Assembly (NCBI RefSeq): GCF_041468085.1
Contig: NZ_CP121014.1
Location: 310,001 to 374,000, forward strand
Length of the DNA: 64,000 nt
Source: Tistrella mobilis
Lineage (GTDB): Bacteria > Pseudomonadota > Alphaproteobacteria > Tistrellales > Tistrellaceae
Reading direction: 5' to 3'
The notes below the pieces were generated by a model. The model was not told where the DNA came from and made no database searches. It worked only from the letters and a program-made list of their open reading frames with translations. Below are positions 33,880-42,464 of the stretch, piece after piece. Positions within the stretch are counted from its first letter, which is position 1. Every line of letters begins with the position of its first letter. A program made the translations under genes and the position numbers.

Positions 33880-35949
33880 TTAATATACCTCACGGCTGCG
33901 CTTGGCGTCCAGCTCCTTACCGAGGTCGAATTTATCGCCCCATGCGGTGAACCAATGGTCATTGGTCGCTTGAACAGCGGCGAGGCCGGCGGCGTCCAGC
34001 CCGAAGATTGCCCCGATTTTGCCCTTGGTTGCATTGCTGATGTATGGGCACACGATCAGGTCGAGTAGCATGATCAGCGTCTCGGCGTCGTTCGGGCAAT
34101 GTGCCTTCATGTATTGAAGCTTGGCGAGGATTTGGGCTTCCACGAAGTCTTTCAGCTTCGCGTATCTGACCTTATGTTTGATATAGGAAAGTAGGATCGT
34201 TACCGAGAAATGGTTCATGAAGCCGGTCGGCCGAATGTAATTTCCGGTCCCCTCTTCCTCCTTGATCAGAAAGTGCCGCAGTAGCACAGAGACTGGCAGC
34301 CAATATTCTCGCCCGATCTGCGAGAGCGATATCAGCAAGTACAGGCTTTCTACCTCGCGATATTCGCTCATCGTGTTTTTTTCGAGCTGTTGCATCACGT
34401 TATCGTGAACGTACTTAAACAAAAGATGCTTCTGCTCGTAGGGCAGCCCTTGCGCGTGGACGAAGTCCACCGAGGTCGCGATCATCCGGCAGATGCGGAT
34501 GGTGTGATTGACCTTGGGACTCGCGGAATAGGCGAAGAACGCAAACTCCATGATTGCCAAGAGAGCATTGGACAAACGCTTGCGGTCCCGGTCCGATTTG
34601 TCGCTCTCAACGTAGGTCTTGAAAAGCTTCTCGATTTTGTTCTCGATGATCGCGAAGGTGTAATTCAGAAGGTCGCCGTAAGTGACGCTGGCTTCCTTGA
34701 TCGCGGCTTTGTAGCGAATGGTCAGCCGATTAGCATTGATCGCGCAGACAAGTTTCTTCTTTGGCGGCTCGGCCGGATCGACCAGCGGCTCTTCCTCGCA
34801 CGCCGGGTCAATTTCGTTGTTTAGGAGTGCAGAAATACGCTCTTTGGCGATCGTAATCTCGGTGATGATCGGCTTCTGGTAATATTTAATCTTTCCGGTG
34901 TTGATACTGAGCTTCTTGCTCTTGAGGATTTGCTGGAGCGCCTCAAAAATCTTGAGTTGCGTCGATTCCTCATTGTAGAAAATGAAAAAGTCATCGACAT
35001 AGCGAAAAATCTCATAATCCACCTTGTGGTGGAGGTTAGCTTTCGTCAATTGCTTGAGCAAATCGTCATCCACCGACTGTAAAATGATTTCGGCGAAAAT
35101 TCGCGAAAATTCTGGACCGATAACAATGCCGTTTGTCTCTTTATGATTTAGGTTCTGCATAAGGGCGTCAAAACGCCCCGCGAAAGTTCTTTTTGACTCA
35201 TTCAGTTTGAATTTCGTTTGATCTTTGCCAAGAACGGCCCAGGGAAGCGAGTGAGTGTAGATGCTGTCGAAACACTTGCTGATATCGATCTGTACCATCG
35301 CATTATACTTCTTCTCGCTGCGATGGTATTGGTAGGACTCGAAGAAGCGATGGATATTCCGATATTTCCGGTAAACGAAATAGGATCCTACCTGCTCATA
35401 CTCGCGATCTTCCTCTTCCAGCCCTGCGACTGACTCCAGCCGCTCTTCATGAAGCTTGTCCTTAAAATAGACATATCGTGACACCGACACCGGGCGGCGG
35501 ATTGAAAATTCGCTAATCGACGTGTGGTAGATGATCAGTGCGCTGTGGGTCGCGTAGAAGTTCGCGACTGCGACCTGATTGCGCGGGTGGACGACGCTCA
35601 GGGTGCGGCCATCTAAATTATGCGCGACCCGAAAATTGAACGGGATCGTGGCCATCTGGCACTTGTTATAGGGCACCGACCGTCTGGTCTTGGTCTTGCC
35701 CCATTCGATCGCCACTTCGGCAGTGATGGACCTGATATCTTTGATACCGAACAGAAGTTGCATCGTGCGGTCGAGCGCGTCAGTCTCGCAAACCCAGCAC
35801 AATTGATCTTTCTTGATCTCTACGCTGTTGTCGCGCAGGAAGCGATAATAGCCCCGGTTTGAAAACGTGGGGGGCACCTCGAACGGTAGCATGTCCGTGA
35901 GGATAGACCGTTGTTTTCGATGGGTGAGCGAAACACGACGCTTAGACAT
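33880..35949 (-). CDS. drt3b: Defence reverse transcriptase Drt3b (UG8-like)
   Basis: A 689-residue reverse transcriptase. The long N-terminal region (1-200) precedes the catalytic domain. Motif A is MVQIDISKCFDSIYTHSLPW with Asp222, motif B is GIVIGPEFSRIFAEIIL (about 274-290), and motif C is RYVDDFFIF with the YVDD aspartates at 319-320. A thumb and a roughly 300-residue helical C-terminal domain follow. All catalytic acids are intact. It overlaps the upstream RT gene by eight bases (ATGTCTAA), so both are co-translated. Two adjacent unrelated RTs of this size are the layout of antiphage DRT type 3. Base composition is clearly less GC-rich than the chromosome, implying transfer. Assignment as the b subunit rests on size, order and motif style. 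Confidence 0.8.
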   Translation of the reverse strand: MSKRRVSLTHRKQRSILTDMLPFEVPPTFSNRGYYRFLRDNSVEIKKDQLCWVCETDALDRTMQLLFGIKDIRSITAEVAIEWGKTKTRRSVPYNKCQMATIPFNFRVAHNLDGRTLSVVHPRNQVAVANFYATHSALIIYHTSISEFSIRRPVSVSRYVYFKDKLHEERLESVAGLEEEDREYEQVGSYFVYRKYRNIHRFFESYQYHRSEKKYNAMVQIDISKCFDSIYTHSLPWAVLGKDQTKFKLNESKRTFAGRFDALMQNLNHKETNGIVIGPEFSRIFAEIILQSVDDDLLKQLTKANLHHKVDYEIFRYVDDFFIFYNEESTQLKIFEALQQILKSKKLSINTGKIKYYQKPIITEITIAKERISALLNNEIDPACEEEPLVDPAEPPKKKLVCAINANRLTIRYKAAIKEASVTYGDLLNYTFAIIENKIEKLFKTYVESDKSDRDRKRLSNALLAIMEFAFFAYSASPKVNHTIRICRMIATSVDFVHAQGLPYEQKHLLFKYVHDNVMQQLEKNTMSEYREVESLYLLISLSQIGREYWLPVSVLLRHFLIKEEEGTGNYIRPTGFMNHFSVTILLSYIKHKVRYAKLKDFVEAQILAKLQYMKAHCPNDAETLIMLLDLIVCPYISNATKGKIGAIFGLDAAGLAAVQATNDHWFTAWGDKFDLGKELDAKRSREVY

Positions 35950-37456
35950 ATTTCCATGCTCTCACGATCGTCTGCAATTCCTCAACGCTGAAATTATGGT
36001 ACCGGCGTTGCTCGAATCCCGTAGTAAATTCGAGATTCTTCAATTTCTGTTGCAGGCTGCTGCTACGTAGGGACTTGATCCGCACCTTCAGTTCCCGGTC
36101 CAGCTGTTGGAGGCTTGTCAGGTCGGTGGCGATCGAGTTGTTGTAGTAGATGCCGGTAACCGCGCAAGATTTGCTGTTTTTAAGCCGCGTGTTGCCGGTC
36201 AGGAATTTGATTCGCGAGATCAATTTGCGGTAGGCGCACCGCGGACGCAACGGCCTCTCCCGCTGATATTCATTGAATGCGATTTCCATCCGCGCACGAT
36301 ATTTTTTTATCTTCGTCGTGCTAGGTGAAATCTCGCATCCTTTAGAGTCTATGTTGAATTTGTAACCGAGATACTCAAAATGTTGCGAACTCTGGTCCGG
36401 AAAAGCAAATTCGTGCGTCTTCTCTGCATTGTGCGTAAGCCCGTTCTTGCCGAAGATGTCGATGATCCGGTCCTTGTAGGAGCCGAAGCTGTCGCCAGCC
36501 GGGGGCCGTGCAAAGACAGCCACGATATCATCGACGAACCGGCAATAAAGAACCAGACCGGGGATTGCCCGGATCGCGCTATCAATGGGGCGCAGGTAAA
36601 ATTCGGCGAGGTAGGCACTGATACCCACCCCGCGTGGTATGCCGACTGTAGCGTCGGATTTCACGCCATAGGATTCCAGGATCTGTTTGATGTACTTCTT
36701 CGATGCCGGGCTTAGGAGCTGGTCGCCGTCGAGCTTTTCGAGAAGCTTCTTTCTGTCGATACTTTCGTAGAAAGAAGAAATATCGGTTCGGACCAACTCG
36801 AAGGGGAAGGGGCTGCCCAGCATGTCGCGAACTTGACAGACAAGGTCGTGCCGATTTGCTGGTTTAACTTTATAGATCTTATTGATATTACGTTGCAGTT
36901 GCTTGATGACAAAAAATGTCTCAGGCTCTGCATCGATACAAAACACCGGTTTTCCATTCGGGCCGTCTTTTTTAGACAGCTCGATCTTGAAGCTGGACTT
37001 GAGGACTTTATGGCTCAACTCATCCATCAGGGCATCGATGGCGGCCGATTTGTCCGCCTTAAGGGCGTTGAGTTCATTTTGCAGAACCAGCAACGTCGCT
37101 TCAAACTCTTTCACATTCATTGTCGCCCGGGCGGCGCGAAGATCACGAATGTCCTGCACCTTTGCGCGAACAGCAAGAGTGAGTGGTTTGAGCGAGGGAA
37201 AGTAACGGCTAACCAAGTCCAGGCCTTTGCGGTTCTCGGCGTCATAAATGCGGCGGAAGTTCTCCGCTGTGAACATCTGATCGAGCATTACTAAGGTAAC
37301 ATCCTGTGCTCGGTTGCGACGGTGTTCGAGAATAAAGTTGTCCCGCAAGGCTCCATTGCGGGTCTTCTGTGTAGGGATGTTTGTAGATTGAGCGCGGCTT
37401 ACAAGGAGCACATCCTGAGATGACGGTCGGCACTTTTTCCTAAGACGGGAGAACAT
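35942..37456 (-). CDS. drt3a: Defence reverse transcriptase Drt3a (UG3-like)
   Basis: A 504-residue reverse transcriptase. The N-terminal 180 residues include a helical region with LDQMFTAENFRRIYDAENRK. The RT core then shows motif A FELVRTDISSFYESID with Asp225, motif B VGIPRGVGISAYLAEFYL (about 271-288), motif C YCRFVDDIVAVF with FVDD at 307-310, and FEYLGYKFN beyond it. A basic helical C-terminus (about 370-504) is likely RNA-binding. It is the first gene of the two-RT operon. Catalytic residues are intact. The start at 37456 has a weak ribosome binding site. No tumour-like retron msr/msd pair is evident upstream, which argues against a retron. In DRT3 this subunit works with Drt3b and an ncRNA. 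Confidence 0.8.
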   Translation of the reverse strand: MFSRLRKKCRPSSQDVLLVSRAQSTNIPTQKTRNGALRDNFILEHRRNRAQDVTLVMLDQMFTAENFRRIYDAENRKGLDLVSRYFPSLKPLTLAVRAKVQDIRDLRAARATMNVKEFEATLLVLQNELNALKADKSAAIDALMDELSHKVLKSSFKIELSKKDGPNGKPVFCIDAEPETFFVIKQLQRNINKIYKVKPANRHDLVCQVRDMLGSPFPFELVRTDISSFYESIDRKKLLEKLDGDQLLSPASKKYIKQILESYGVKSDATVGIPRGVGISAYLAEFYLRPIDSAIRAIPGLVLYCRFVDDIVAVFARPPAGDSFGSYKDRIIDIFGKNGLTHNAEKTHEFAFPDQSSQHFEYLGYKFNIDSKGCEISPSTTKIKKYRARMEIAFNEYQRERPLRPRCAYRKLISRIKFLTGNTRLKNSKSCAVTGIYYNNSIATDLTSLQQLDRELKVRIKSLRSSSLQQKLKNLEFTTGFEQRRYHNFSVEELQTIVRAWKYV

Positions 37457-37629: not shown

Positions 37630-37901
37630 CAGTTTTCTGGCTGTCGGACGAACAGTGGGCGCAGCTAGAACCGCACCTACCCAGGAACCAGCAGGGCGTC
37701 CGACATGCAGATGAGCGGCGGCTGATCGCAGGACCATCGGCGTAGTGCGGACCGTGTGTCGGTGGTGTGGCTGCCTGGCCGACCATGGGACTTCCTACAA
37801 TCGTCTATAATCCGCTACCGCGGATGGTCCGGGCGTCTTTCCTTGATAGACTGAGTGAAGGCCTTGGGGCCGTTCGACGCTATCAGACGCAAGTTGTGTG
37901 A
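37630..37901 (+). pseudogene. Degenerate IS5-family transposase, N-terminal part
   Basis: The plus strand reads LSDEQWAQLEPHLPRNQQG and then, after a frameshift, RTVCRWCGCLADHG. It returns to the first frame as PTIVYNPLPRM, ending at a stop at 37899-37901. LSDxQWxxLEPxLP and RTGCRWxDxPxxYGPxxTVYNRF are the standard N-terminal blocks of IS5-family transposases. The orientation is opposite to the C-terminal fragment at 33385, so the two are not halves of one simple element. Confidence 0.75.
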
Positions 37902-40012: not shown

Positions 40013-41248
40013 ATGTACACCACCATCCGTCTGCGCAATGTCAGGGCCTGGGCCGATAGCGGCGAGATCGCTCTGGCCCCGCTCACCCTGTTCTACGGCG
40101 CCAATGGTGCCGGCAAAAGCAGCATCGCCCAGGCGCTCGACGCGCTGGCCCGCATCGCCGGGCGTGGTCTTACCGATCCGGCGGCCCTGGTCGCCGCCCT
40201 GCCGGGCGATGCCGTGCACGACATGATCCGCGACCGCGACGCCCGGCGGCTGATCGGCATCGATCTGGCCTGGCAGCCGGATGCATCGATGCAGGCGGCC
40301 CTGGTGCAGGGCGCGCGCCGGCTGGCGGTGTCGGTTGAACTGGGCCTCGATCCGGCCGGCCGGCCGCGGCTGCACGGGCTTCACTGGACCGTGACCGACA
40401 GGGCCGACCGCCCGCTGCGGGTGGTGGCGGTTCATGACGGCAACCCCGTGGACAAGGATGCCGCTGCCATCGATGTGCTGGCCGCCGCCACCGCCGCCGC
40501 GGCCGGCCGTTTCGTGATGCTGGGCCCCCTGCGCGCCCGGCCGCGGCGCAGCTATGCCGTGCCGGCGCGGGTGCCGGCGGGCGTGGGGCCGCGCGGGCAG
40601 GGCGCCGTGCCGGCCATGGCCGCGGCCGACCGCGCCGGCCGTCGGCTGTCGGTGGACGATGGGGCGGAGCGCGGCTTTGCCGATGTCATTTCCGACCGTC
40701 TGGCGGCCCTGGGGCTGGTGGAAGGCGTGGACCTGGTCGATGCCCCGGGCGGGGTGGCGCTGATGGCCCGCGGCCGGCGCGGCGGCCAAGCCCCCTTTGC
40801 CGAAGCCGGGTTCGGCCTGTCGCAGGTATTGCCGGCGGCGGTTGCGGCCTTTCTGGTGCCGGCGGGCTCCACGCTCTGGCTGGAACAGCCCGAACTGCAC
40901 CTGCATGCCGCCGCCCAGGCGGGGCTGGGCGATCTGCTGATCGATGCGCTCGACGCCCGCGAGGGCGGCCGCGCGCGCCGGCTTCAGATCCTGGTCGAAA
41001 CCCATTCCGAACCGCTGCTGAACCGCATCCAGCGGCGCATCGCCGAGGCGCGGCTGGATGCGGAGCGGGTGGCGGTGCACTGGTGCCCGGGCACGGTGCC
41101 GGCCACGATCGAGCGGCTGGAGATGGACGAGACCGGCGAGATCCTGAACTGGCCCGACGATGTTTTCGGCGACGAGATGGCCGATGTCACCGCCCGCGCG
41201 GTGGCGGCTGCCGCCCGGCGCAAGGCGCGCCGGGAGGGCGGGGCATGA
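40013..41248 (+). CDS. OLD/DUF3696-like SMC-type ATPase (cassette gene 1)
   Basis: A 411-residue ATPase of the ABC/SMC superfamily. It starts IRLRNVRAWADSGEIALAPL, has Walker A GANGAGKSS (29-37), an ABC-signature-like GFGLSQVLP (266-274), Walker B LWLEQPELHLH (288-298) and an H-loop ETHSE with His331. The EQPELHLH and ETHSE pattern is that of OLD and DUF3696 ATPases, but the TOPRIM nuclease domain of OLD is missing. Such ATPases are the sensor or switch half of several two-gene defence systems (Gabija, PARIS, Septu-like). Its stop overlaps the next start (ATGA). The gene has native-like high GC. A sensor or regulator role for the linked nuclease is inferred. Confidence 0.8.
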   Translation: MYTTIRLRNVRAWADSGEIALAPLTLFYGANGAGKSSIAQALDALARIAGRGLTDPAALVAALPGDAVHDMIRDRDARRLIGIDLAWQPDASMQAALVQGARRLAVSVELGLDPAGRPRLHGLHWTVTDRADRPLRVVAVHDGNPVDKDAAAIDVLAAATAAAAGRFVMLGPLRARPRRSYAVPARVPAGVGPRGQGAVPAMAAADRAGRRLSVDDGAERGFADVISDRLAALGLVEGVDLVDAPGGVALMARGRRGGQAPFAEAGFGLSQVLPAAVAAFLVPAGSTLWLEQPELHLHAAAQAGLGDLLIDALDAREGGRARRLQILVETHSEPLLNRIQRRIAEARLDAERVAVHWCPGTVPATIERLEMDETGEILNWPDDVFGDEMADVTARAVAAAARRKARREGGA

Positions 41249-41775
41249 GCGAGGGACGCATGCCCGGCCCGCGGTGGATCATCGACACCAATGTTCTGCT
41301 GATCGCCAACGGCGCCCATGACGATGTCGGGCCCGACTGCGTGGCGGCCTGCGCGCTCACCCTGCAGGAGATCCTGCAATCCGGCCGGGTGGTGATCGAT
41401 GACGGCTGGGCGATCCTGGAGGAATACGGCCACAAGCTGCGCCCCAATCGCGGCAAGGGGCCGGGGGATGTGTTCCTGAAATGGCTGCTGCGCCAGACGG
41501 GCAATCCGGCGCGCTGCGAACAGGTGGCCATCACCCCCGACGAGGCCCGGGGCTGGGCCGAATTCCCCGACGATCCGGCCCTTGGCAATTTCGATCCGCC
41601 CGACCGGAAATTCGTCGCCGTGGCCGCAGCCCATCCCGCCCATCCGCCGATCCTGCAGGCGGCGGATTCGAAATGGCTCGACTGGGCGCCGGATCTGGCG
41701 CATCACGGGGTGGAGGTCCGCTTCATCTGCAAGGATGAGGCGCAGCGTTTCCACCACAACAAGTTCGGCCGATGA
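41245..41775 (+). CDS. PIN-domain ribonuclease-like protein (cassette gene 2)
   Basis: A 176-residue protein matching the PIN fold: WIIDTNVLLIAN with Asp14, an acidic helix position Glu42 (LQEIL), then PDRKFVAVAA with Asp120 and AADSKWLDW with Asp141. These four acids are those that bind the metal in PIN nucleases, most of which cut RNA. It is longer than VapC toxins (about 130-140). Both ends overlap neighbours by ATGA, so it is strictly coupled to the ATPase and the ligase. No VapB-like antitoxin accompanies it; control may instead come from the ATPase. Confidence 0.75.
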   Translation: MSEGRMPGPRWIIDTNVLLIANGAHDDVGPDCVAACALTLQEILQSGRVVIDDGWAILEEYGHKLRPNRGKGPGDVFLKWLLRQTGNPARCEQVAITPDEARGWAEFPDDPALGNFDPPDRKFVAVAAAHPAHPPILQAADSKWLDWAPDLAHHGVEVRFICKDEAQRFHHNKFGR

Positions 41776-42464
41776 CAGGGTTCTTCCGCTTTCCCCAGAC
41801 CGCCCATGTCGCCTGGCTGGGGGCAGGCGCGCCGCGCGACGACAAGCTGCTCTCGCCCGACGAGATCGATCACCTTCTGGATGGTCCGGTGGTGATCGAA
41901 GAGAAGGTCGACGGCGCCAATCTGGGCCTGTCGGTCGATCCCGACACCGGGCTGGTGCGCGCGCAGAACCGCGGCCAGTATCTTCATGCCCCCTTCACCG
42001 GCCAGTTCGAGCGGCTGGGCGACTGGCTGGCGCTGCATGAAGACCGGCTGTTCGATGCGCTGGCCATCGACCGGCTGATCCTGTTCGGCGAATGGCTGGC
42101 CGCCCGGCATTCCCTGGGCTATGACGCGCTGCCCGATCTGTTCCTGGCCTTCGACGTTTACGAGCGTGAAACCGGCCGCTTCCGCAGCACCACGGCCCGC
42201 AACCGCCTGGCGCAGCAGATCGGCATCGAAACCGTGCCCGCCCTGTTTACCGGCCGGGTCACCGACGGCGTCGCCGGGCTTCTGCGCATCCTGACCGGCG
42301 CCCGCAGCCGCTATCGCGACGGCCCGCCCGAAGGCATCGTGATCCGGCGCGAGGACGATACCCACCTCATCGCCCGCGCCAAGCTGGTCCGCGCCGATTT
42401 CACCCAGGCGATCGGCGAGCACTGGCGCCGCCGGGCGATCGAGTGGAACCGCGTACGACACTGA
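41772..42464 (+). CDS. RNA ligase family protein (cassette gene 3)
   Basis: A compact 230-residue nucleotidyltransferase. Motif I is EEKVDGAN with the AMP-accepting Lys45. Then come RAQNRGQ, motif III FGEWLAARHS (Glu107), motif IIIa FLAFDVYE, motif IV EGIVIR (187-192) and motif V AKLVR with Lys204. This is the complete adenylyltransferase set of Rnl2-like RNA ligases, with no OB-fold as in DNA ligases. It would seal 3'-OH/5'-phosphate RNA ends. The four-base overlap with the PIN gene suggests a break-and-seal pair. Stand-alone homologues of this ligase type occur in phages and bacteria; function here is inferred. Confidence 0.8.
   Translation: MTGFFRFPQTAHVAWLGAGAPRDDKLLSPDEIDHLLDGPVVIEEKVDGANLGLSVDPDTGLVRAQNRGQYLHAPFTGQFERLGDWLALHEDRLFDALAIDRLILFGEWLAARHSLGYDALPDLFLAFDVYERETGRFRSTTARNRLAQQIGIETVPALFTGRVTDGVAGLLRILTGARSRYRDGPPEGIVIRREDDTHLIARAKLVRADFTQAIGEHWRRRAIEWNRVRH

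Follow-up and report, generated by a model that had tools for sequence, protein, structure and literature searches.

A HEC-03-type cassette of Tistrella mobilis with a putative RNA ligase as a third component

The cutting of tRNA under the control of an ATPase is known from PrrC and RloC, in which ATPase and nuclease, the latter of the HEPN type, form a single protein and sealing is carried out by phage enzymes. In PARIS, the nuclease AriB, which is of the Toprim type, is controlled by AriA. AriB cuts tRNA, and a PARIS paper names the repair of cut tRNA, by T4 Pnk and Rnl1, as a phage tactic (PMC12409363). Another close relative is HEC-03 (Hma-embedded candidate 03), which PADLOC describes by two components, HEC-03A and HEC-03B. 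In the literature examined, HEC-03 appears only as a name in one list (PMC13356809), and several HECs, among them HEC-06 by name, have been verified as antiviral (PMC12988326, PMC12409356). Here, a cassette of three genes, predicted to encode an ATPase, a PIN nuclease and an RNA ligase, is described from a stretch of 64,000 nucleotides of Tistrella mobilis DNA (assembly GCF_041468085.1, contig NZ_CP121014.1, positions 310,001 to 374,000 of the forward strand; the genome has 6.3 Mb in four contigs), the whole of which stretch is called the window below.

The ATPase and PIN genes of the cassette, which are adjacent and on one strand, match HEC-03, and the cassette adds to them an RNA ligase that no PADLOC model matched. 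It is, in effect, HEC-03 with a frequent third component, and its ATPase-PIN part was already known. The initial annotation of this DNA knew of no named system with such a composition, a statement to be corrected in that two of the three genes already have a name as a candidate system. No paper naming the trio was found in the literature examined, and an earlier mention may exist in the preprint that defined the HECs (10.1101/2024.01.29.577857), in 10.1093/nar/gkw722 or in 10.1093/nar/gkaa726.

The likeness to PARIS lies in an AAA_21-type ATPase beside a small nuclease and in the likely action of the effector on RNA. Nevertheless, where PARIS has a Toprim nuclease, the effector of the cassette has a predicted PIN fold, and a ligase is added. 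This fold is of the VapC type (Z 8-9.3), as in VapBC, but the neighbours of the PIN gene encode a 411-residue ATPase and a ligase, and a gene for a small DNA-binding antitoxin is absent. Complexes of the Pnkp-Hen1 and Pnkp1-Rnl-Hen1 kind also employ a bacterial RNA ligase for broken RNA ends (PMC4411300); they combine end-healing and methyltransferase activities with no nuclease, whereas the cassette includes a nuclease but lacks any enzyme for end healing. About an even chance is given here to the reading that the trio is an anti-phage cassette of the HEC-03 type, similar to PARIS, that brings an RNA-sealing enzyme of its own.

The three predicted proteins

The cassette consists of three genes only, and neither a kinase nor a phosphatase gene is among them (Table 1). 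The composition had been proposed from the letters alone, and it is borne out by Pfam, PADLOC and the predicted structures. Similarly, the ATGA overlaps proposed for both junctions were found, and overlaps of 4 bases recur between the ATPase and PIN genes in 54 of 79 measured loci and between the PIN and ligase genes in 40 of 74, counts that rest on start codons picked by a script.

Table 1. Positions in the window of the cassette, its gene overlaps and the DRT type 3 pair
Feature	Positions	Strand	Remarks
ATPase gene	40013-41248	+	Open reading frame (ORF) of 411 amino acids (aa); AAA_21, AAA_15, DUF3696 and HEC-03B matches
PIN nuclease gene	41245-41775	+	176 aa ORF; HEC-03A match, predicted PIN fold
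RNA ligase gene	41772-42464	+	230 aa ORF; PF09414 match, Rnl2-like predicted fold
ATGA start/stop overlap, ATPase to PIN	41245-41248	+	4 bases
ATGA start/stop overlap, PIN to ligase	41772-41775	+	4 bases
DRT type 3 pair, Drt3b	33880-35949	-	665 bits
DRT type 3 pair, Drt3a	35942-37456	-	411 bits

The first protein is, by sequence, an ABC/OLD-type ATPase with a C-terminal DUF3696 part. Its Pfam matches include AAA_21 (5e-17), AAA_15 (3e-14) and DUF3696 (23.5 bits, with a cut-off of 22), and Toprim is absent from the 10 families listed for it, in agreement with the initial description of an ATPase that lacks this domain. In PADLOC, it matches HEC-03B (PDLC04148) at 4e-59 and, more weakly, the AriA profile of PARIS at 3e-16. 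Among 98 aligned rows, Walker A is kept in all 93 that reach the motif, with two S-to-T changes, and the five remaining rows begin late as an effect of start-codon choice; S270/Q271, E329 and H331 are kept in all 98 and E291 in 97. At 411 residues, compared with a median of 464 in relatives, the Tistrella protein is shorter by about 50. In a comparison set from which near-copies of the genus were removed, it reaches at most 40% identity to other members, whereas the PIN protein reaches 60% and the ligase 64%; inside the set, median identities are 58% for the ATPase, 55% for the PIN protein and 57% for the ligase. This divergence of the ATPase would fit a fast-changing sensor, and a role as sensor or scaffold is likely.

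For the second protein, the Pfam search gave zero matches, and HEC-03A (PDLC04147, 6e-25) was the sole PADLOC match at E <= 1. Its predicted structure, with a mean predicted local distance difference test score (pLDDT) of 94.9, gave weak matches in Foldseek (best E 0.05). In a second look with VIA-align, 15 of the top 20 matches (Z 8.0-9.3) were VapC, FitB, PIN or toxin-antitoxin proteins by title and the others were four uncharacterised proteins and one Cas9 complex, a ranking of VapC that came from this program alone, which often gives 7-8 as its best Z. The acids D14, E60, D117 and D120 do not vary across the 102 homologues aligned, and D141 is kept in 101, with D141E as the one exception. 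Because the titles of the structural matches agree with these conserved acids, which is a stronger sign than Z, the model is read as a VapC-like PIN-fold nuclease, likely the effector RNase of the cassette. VapC-type PIN domains are tRNA-cutting enzymes, and the PIN site is required for phage defence in two other PIN systems (PMC13092281).

The third protein matches PF09414 at 1e-32 in the Pfam search. Its predicted structure (pLDDT 90.9) is a single domain that aligns to the ligase core, and its nearest structures are RNA ligases of Naegleria, Trypanosoma and archaea and T4 Rnl2 (E 1e-8 to 1e-6). DNA ligases rank below these, and a DNA ligase identity for the third protein is therefore disfavoured. 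Across 90 aligned ligases, K45, D47, G48, R67, E107, F127, D128, E187, G188 and K204 are invariant and R202 is intact except for one unreadable letter, so that the nucleotidyltransferase motifs, which we take to be those numbered I to V, are complete, as the initial annotation had it. With only 230 residues and one domain, the protein is devoid of the C-terminal domain of the T4 Rnl2 type. Sequence and model together identify it as an Rnl2-type RNA ligase made of the nucleotidyltransferase domain only.

In the T4 enzyme, full sealing needs the C-terminal domain, and a truncated T4 Rnl2 (residues 1-249) can adenylate without efficient sealing. Since the ligase of the cassette has one domain, a partner may be required. 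The presence of a nucleotidyltransferase domain alone would also suit a ligase that takes part in the attack, either by joining or 5′-adenylating cut ends into dead products or by blocking the repair enzymes of phages, and relatives without a ligase could then be weaker forms of the system. Such a function is nevertheless improbable, as the tested residues of the ligase motifs are conserved throughout and nothing positive favours it.

Linkage, distribution and divergence

Relatives were collected by scanning a five-row PIN alignment over 84,980 species genomes, which gave 363 relatives, and the best 80 loci were kept (these and other loci are numbered here with the letter L). The complete trio is found in the same order in 73 of these. 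Six have an ATPase and a PIN gene and no ligase, one of them (L063) stopping at a contig edge, and one (L033) has PIN and ligase genes with no recognised ATPase. In a sample of 398 genomes of the phylum, presence is patchy: the HEC-03A profile matches 15, and in 11 of these 15, the genome studied here included, the ligase adjoins the PIN gene. From the other side, a ligase profile at E <= 1e-20 gives 16 matches in a phylum sample of 398 genomes, and the best 11 of them coincide fully with the 11 genomes that hold the trio. The next match (G387, the twelfth) covers just a C-terminal piece of a ligase, with a neighbouring gene whose start looks by eye like that of the HNH genes of other loci, and the remaining four have far lower scores and lie within longer reading frames. 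Linkage of the three genes thus exceeds chance, and the trio loci, together with the coincidence of ligase and trio genomes in the phylum sample, rule out chance neighbours. The initial annotation had made its interpretation depend on such linkage in other genomes, and the linkage was found.

Judged by record titles, carriers of the trio are found among Pseudomonadota, Myxococcota, Verrucomicrobiota, Planctomycetota and Spirochaetota, and both Acidobacteriota loci (L046, L074) are without a ligase. The sole Chloroflexota trio record (L065) has a PIN gene nearly identical to Burkholderiales rows; it is probably mis-binned, so Chloroflexota is not counted. The trio is also present on a Rhodococcus plasmid, with a PIN gene 35-37% identical. 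A copy in Escherichia coli was sought with the cassette of Aeromonas veronii, and no DNA-level match was found in 5,426 genomes. Within Tistrella, the trio is present in three of three genomes, and the PIN gene is 97% identical to the copy on the T. mobilis plasmid pTM2.

The cassette is under purifying selection within the genus, as the ratio of nonsynonymous to synonymous substitution rates (dN/dS; nine pairwise values) lies at 0.09-0.15 in the ATPase gene, at 0.02-0.25 in the PIN gene and at 0.05-0.07 in the ligase gene. Over 82 rows, the pairwise distances of the ligase are correlated with those of the PIN protein (r = 0.72) and with those of the ATPase (r = 0.59), and shared ancestry contributes to both values. 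In a PIN tree, Tistrella belongs to a group of 12 rows that also holds Myxococcota, Verrucomicrobiota and Planctomycetota as well as two rows of Pseudomonadota, a placement that suggests horizontal transfer, at a support of 85, not starred, in a quick search. Residue counts and tree exclude duplicates (L106, L118, L126, L133, L136) and PIN frames that are too short (L081, L116); L063, whose contig stops 17 bases past the PIN gene, stands in the tree unscored. In the branch of L128 to L131, the PIN protein is 29-32% identical to that of the window and the ligase, in the three loci that have it, 51-56%, as if the ligase were the slowest-changing part or one that has been exchanged.

Genomic surroundings and mobility

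The neighbourhood of the cassette was compared with control loci by means of PADLOC profiles. From loci without obvious context copies, 115 of 123 nearest neighbours were used (eight were dropped as context copies or for their length), with proteins of more than 600 residues cut to 600 and with the second downstream gene in place of the first in L090. As controls, 115 proteins were used out of 120 that had been drawn at 20 fixed positions of nine genomes, unmatched by species. At E <= 1e-15, 256 families were matched for the neighbours versus 2 for the controls, counts that refer to redundant profile families and not to neighbours and that rest on heuristic gene calls. The two control families were mad3, which also matches four test proteins, and GlgB. 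In short, genes for restriction and for other kinds of defence are frequent beside the cassette, in contrast to random loci, which is the enrichment that the initial annotation had suggested looking for. For instance, the trio lies between type I methylase and specificity genes and a type I restriction gene in L053, whereas in L069 it has an HmaB-like methylase on one side and, on the other, an Orf5/HEC-06-like gene with a helicase after it. On an Aeromonas plasmid (L132), AbiEii is located upstream of the cassette with two small genes between. As for the Hma embedding of HEC-03, an HmaB-like neighbour is present in L069, and the window copy has a DRT type 3 (DRT3) pair 2.6 kb upstream but regulator genes as its immediate neighbours. 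Some other loci lie among metabolic-looking genes, as judged by eye.

Instead of serving in defence, the trio could be a cellular operon for RNA processing or splicing, whose PIN protein and ligase would cut and rejoin one particular RNA of the host. Purifying selection would agree with this, as would the presence of the cassette in three of three Tistrella genomes and the position of the pTM2 copy. Nevertheless, the patchy distribution in the phylum, the defence-rich neighbours, the copies on plasmids and beside phage genes, and the grouping of Tistrella with other phyla in the PIN tree all argue against such an operon, which we consider a poor prospect.

Regarding mobility, the PIN gene occurs in 12 of 72,556 plasmid records, and 10 of these 12 plasmids are conjugative or mobilizable. 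Five of the six annotated plasmid regions inspected hold the trio; the exception is from Acinetobacter, with an HNH gene in the ligase's place and an ATPase annotated as two pieces. HNH genes beyond the ligase, matched by the PADLOC HNH profile in 6 of the 115 neighbours, and the replacement of the ligase by HNH in L135 might indicate that the PIN protein acts on DNA, or directly on phage nucleic acid, and that the third enzyme seals nicks of the host. That would be very improbable, since RNA ligases rank above DNA ligases among the structures similar to the third protein, and the predicted PIN fold is VapC-like. The HNH endonuclease genes seen include the one at 12526-13281 in L135, in the ligase's place, and the one at 9225-9992 in L037, and HNH-like starts, judged by the first residues only, are found in L071, L086 and L093 and one gene further in L090.

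Two other associations were considered and rejected. The first is spread by phages: the PIN gene has no match in 50,697 phage records, all ligase matches in these records are below 60% identity, and the trio is found on a single IMG/VR contig, where a portal gene lies 2.7 kb away and a terminase beyond it, phage genes that are presumably of the P2 type. The second is a tie to a tRNA gene or a known RNA. There are no tRNA genes in the window, no Rfam match was found up to E 0.1 between 33000 and 43500, and in a scan of a further 37 of the 80 loci, tRNA or tmRNA was seen in 3, each time more than 3.5 kb from the cassette.

In the window, the cassette is flanked by Crp and AsnC regulator genes. 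The DRT3 pair, which lies about 2.6 kb upstream, has a guanine-cytosine (GC) content of 51%, compared with 66% for the window, and the corresponding locus of T. mobilis pTM2 has no annotation of it. The pair is probably a recent arrival, and the site may be a defence hotspot. Beside it, at about 37640-37760, a short stretch resembles by eye the start of an IS5-type transposase.

A possible reversible switch

Composition, catalytic sites, linkage, co-divergence, neighbourhood and mobility of the cassette are observed, and a mode of action that would agree with them can be proposed, each biochemical step of which is inferred. The ATPase would hold the PIN nuclease inactive and sense a trigger of infection, as AriA would for AriB. 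The released PIN protein would then cut an essential structured RNA, most likely in a tRNA or rRNA loop, and translation would halt; an essential RNA is the expected target because the predicted fold is VapC-like. Metal-dependent PIN enzymes leave 5′-phosphate and 3′-OH ends, for which no printed statement was found when sought. Ligases of this class require just such ends (PMC7824862). Because the end chemistry of the one would thus be that needed by the other, the ligase could reseal PIN cuts with neither a kinase nor a phosphatase. In this way, it would damp leaky cutting, or permit recovery after the trigger disappears, and it most likely reseals the cuts of the PIN protein itself. That the whole forms a reversible switch of abortive infection encoded by the host, with one operon that senses, cuts an essential RNA and later reseals it, is a tentative proposal, to which somewhat less than an even chance is given.

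Several observations weigh against the mode of action outlined above. The 80 loci comprise only the nearest relatives, and more distant ones are often without a ligase. In a sample of the class, for instance, PIN was found in 7 of 59 genomes, and the ligase is present in the three of Tistrella and in none of the other four. Similarly, 12 of 101 scorable loci have no ligase, with the PIN acids retained in each of them (in one case with D141E). Absence means here no tblastn match at E 1e-3 within the DNA available around the locus, which extends only about 0.8-1.5 kb beyond the PIN gene in L077, L117, L127 and L130; elsewhere in these genomes no systematic search was made, and one (G556) has a distant ligase. 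The PIN tree needs nine gains or losses of the ligase, four of which are forced by well-supported branches. Moreover, a ligase without the second domain may not seal alone. Finally, the pTM2 copy sits among mostly metabolic genes, and a Crp/Fnr regulator gene is upstream of the cassette both there and in the window; together with the presence in three of three Tistrella genomes, this would fit a settled or domesticated role.

Because loci without a ligase keep the PIN acids, the ligase would modulate and cannot be an indispensable antidote, except where a different ligase takes over, and a strict role as an obligatory antitoxin is rejected. The initial idea of RNA damage that can be healed is upheld in part: composition, overlaps, conserved sites, linkage and association with defence stand, and the ligase is not strictly required.

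The same ATPase-PIN pairs with conserved acids would also be expected if the ligase were an independent gene that travels with them and repairs RNA damage inflicted by phages, rival bacteria or other defences. A close ligase that stands alone in L107 (8703-9386; 52% identical to that of the window) points in this direction too, besides being a further point against the mode of action outlined above; it is 3′ of an RsmB/F-type 16S rRNA methyltransferase gene, and neither PIN nor ATPase was matched within 18 kb. On the other hand, close relatives show tight linkage whether one starts from the PIN gene or from the ligase, the genes often overlap by 4 bases, and the distances of the two proteins are correlated, which makes an independent repair gene unlikely. 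In L111 (7411-9976), a distant ligase, an AAA_33 kinase-like protein and a methyltransferase form an apparent RNA-repair operon.

In the literature examined, the repair of immune RNA cuts is a function of phages or of separate operons. If the reversible switch proposed here is true, the immune system would contain its own RNA repair. Should the ligase indeed heal the cuts of the PIN protein, a two-gene candidate that is annotated automatically would have a frequent third component that its model misses, and one operon together with one active-site mutant would allow a direct test of reversible abortive infection. Programmed recovery would then be a third outcome, besides death or phage-encoded repair.

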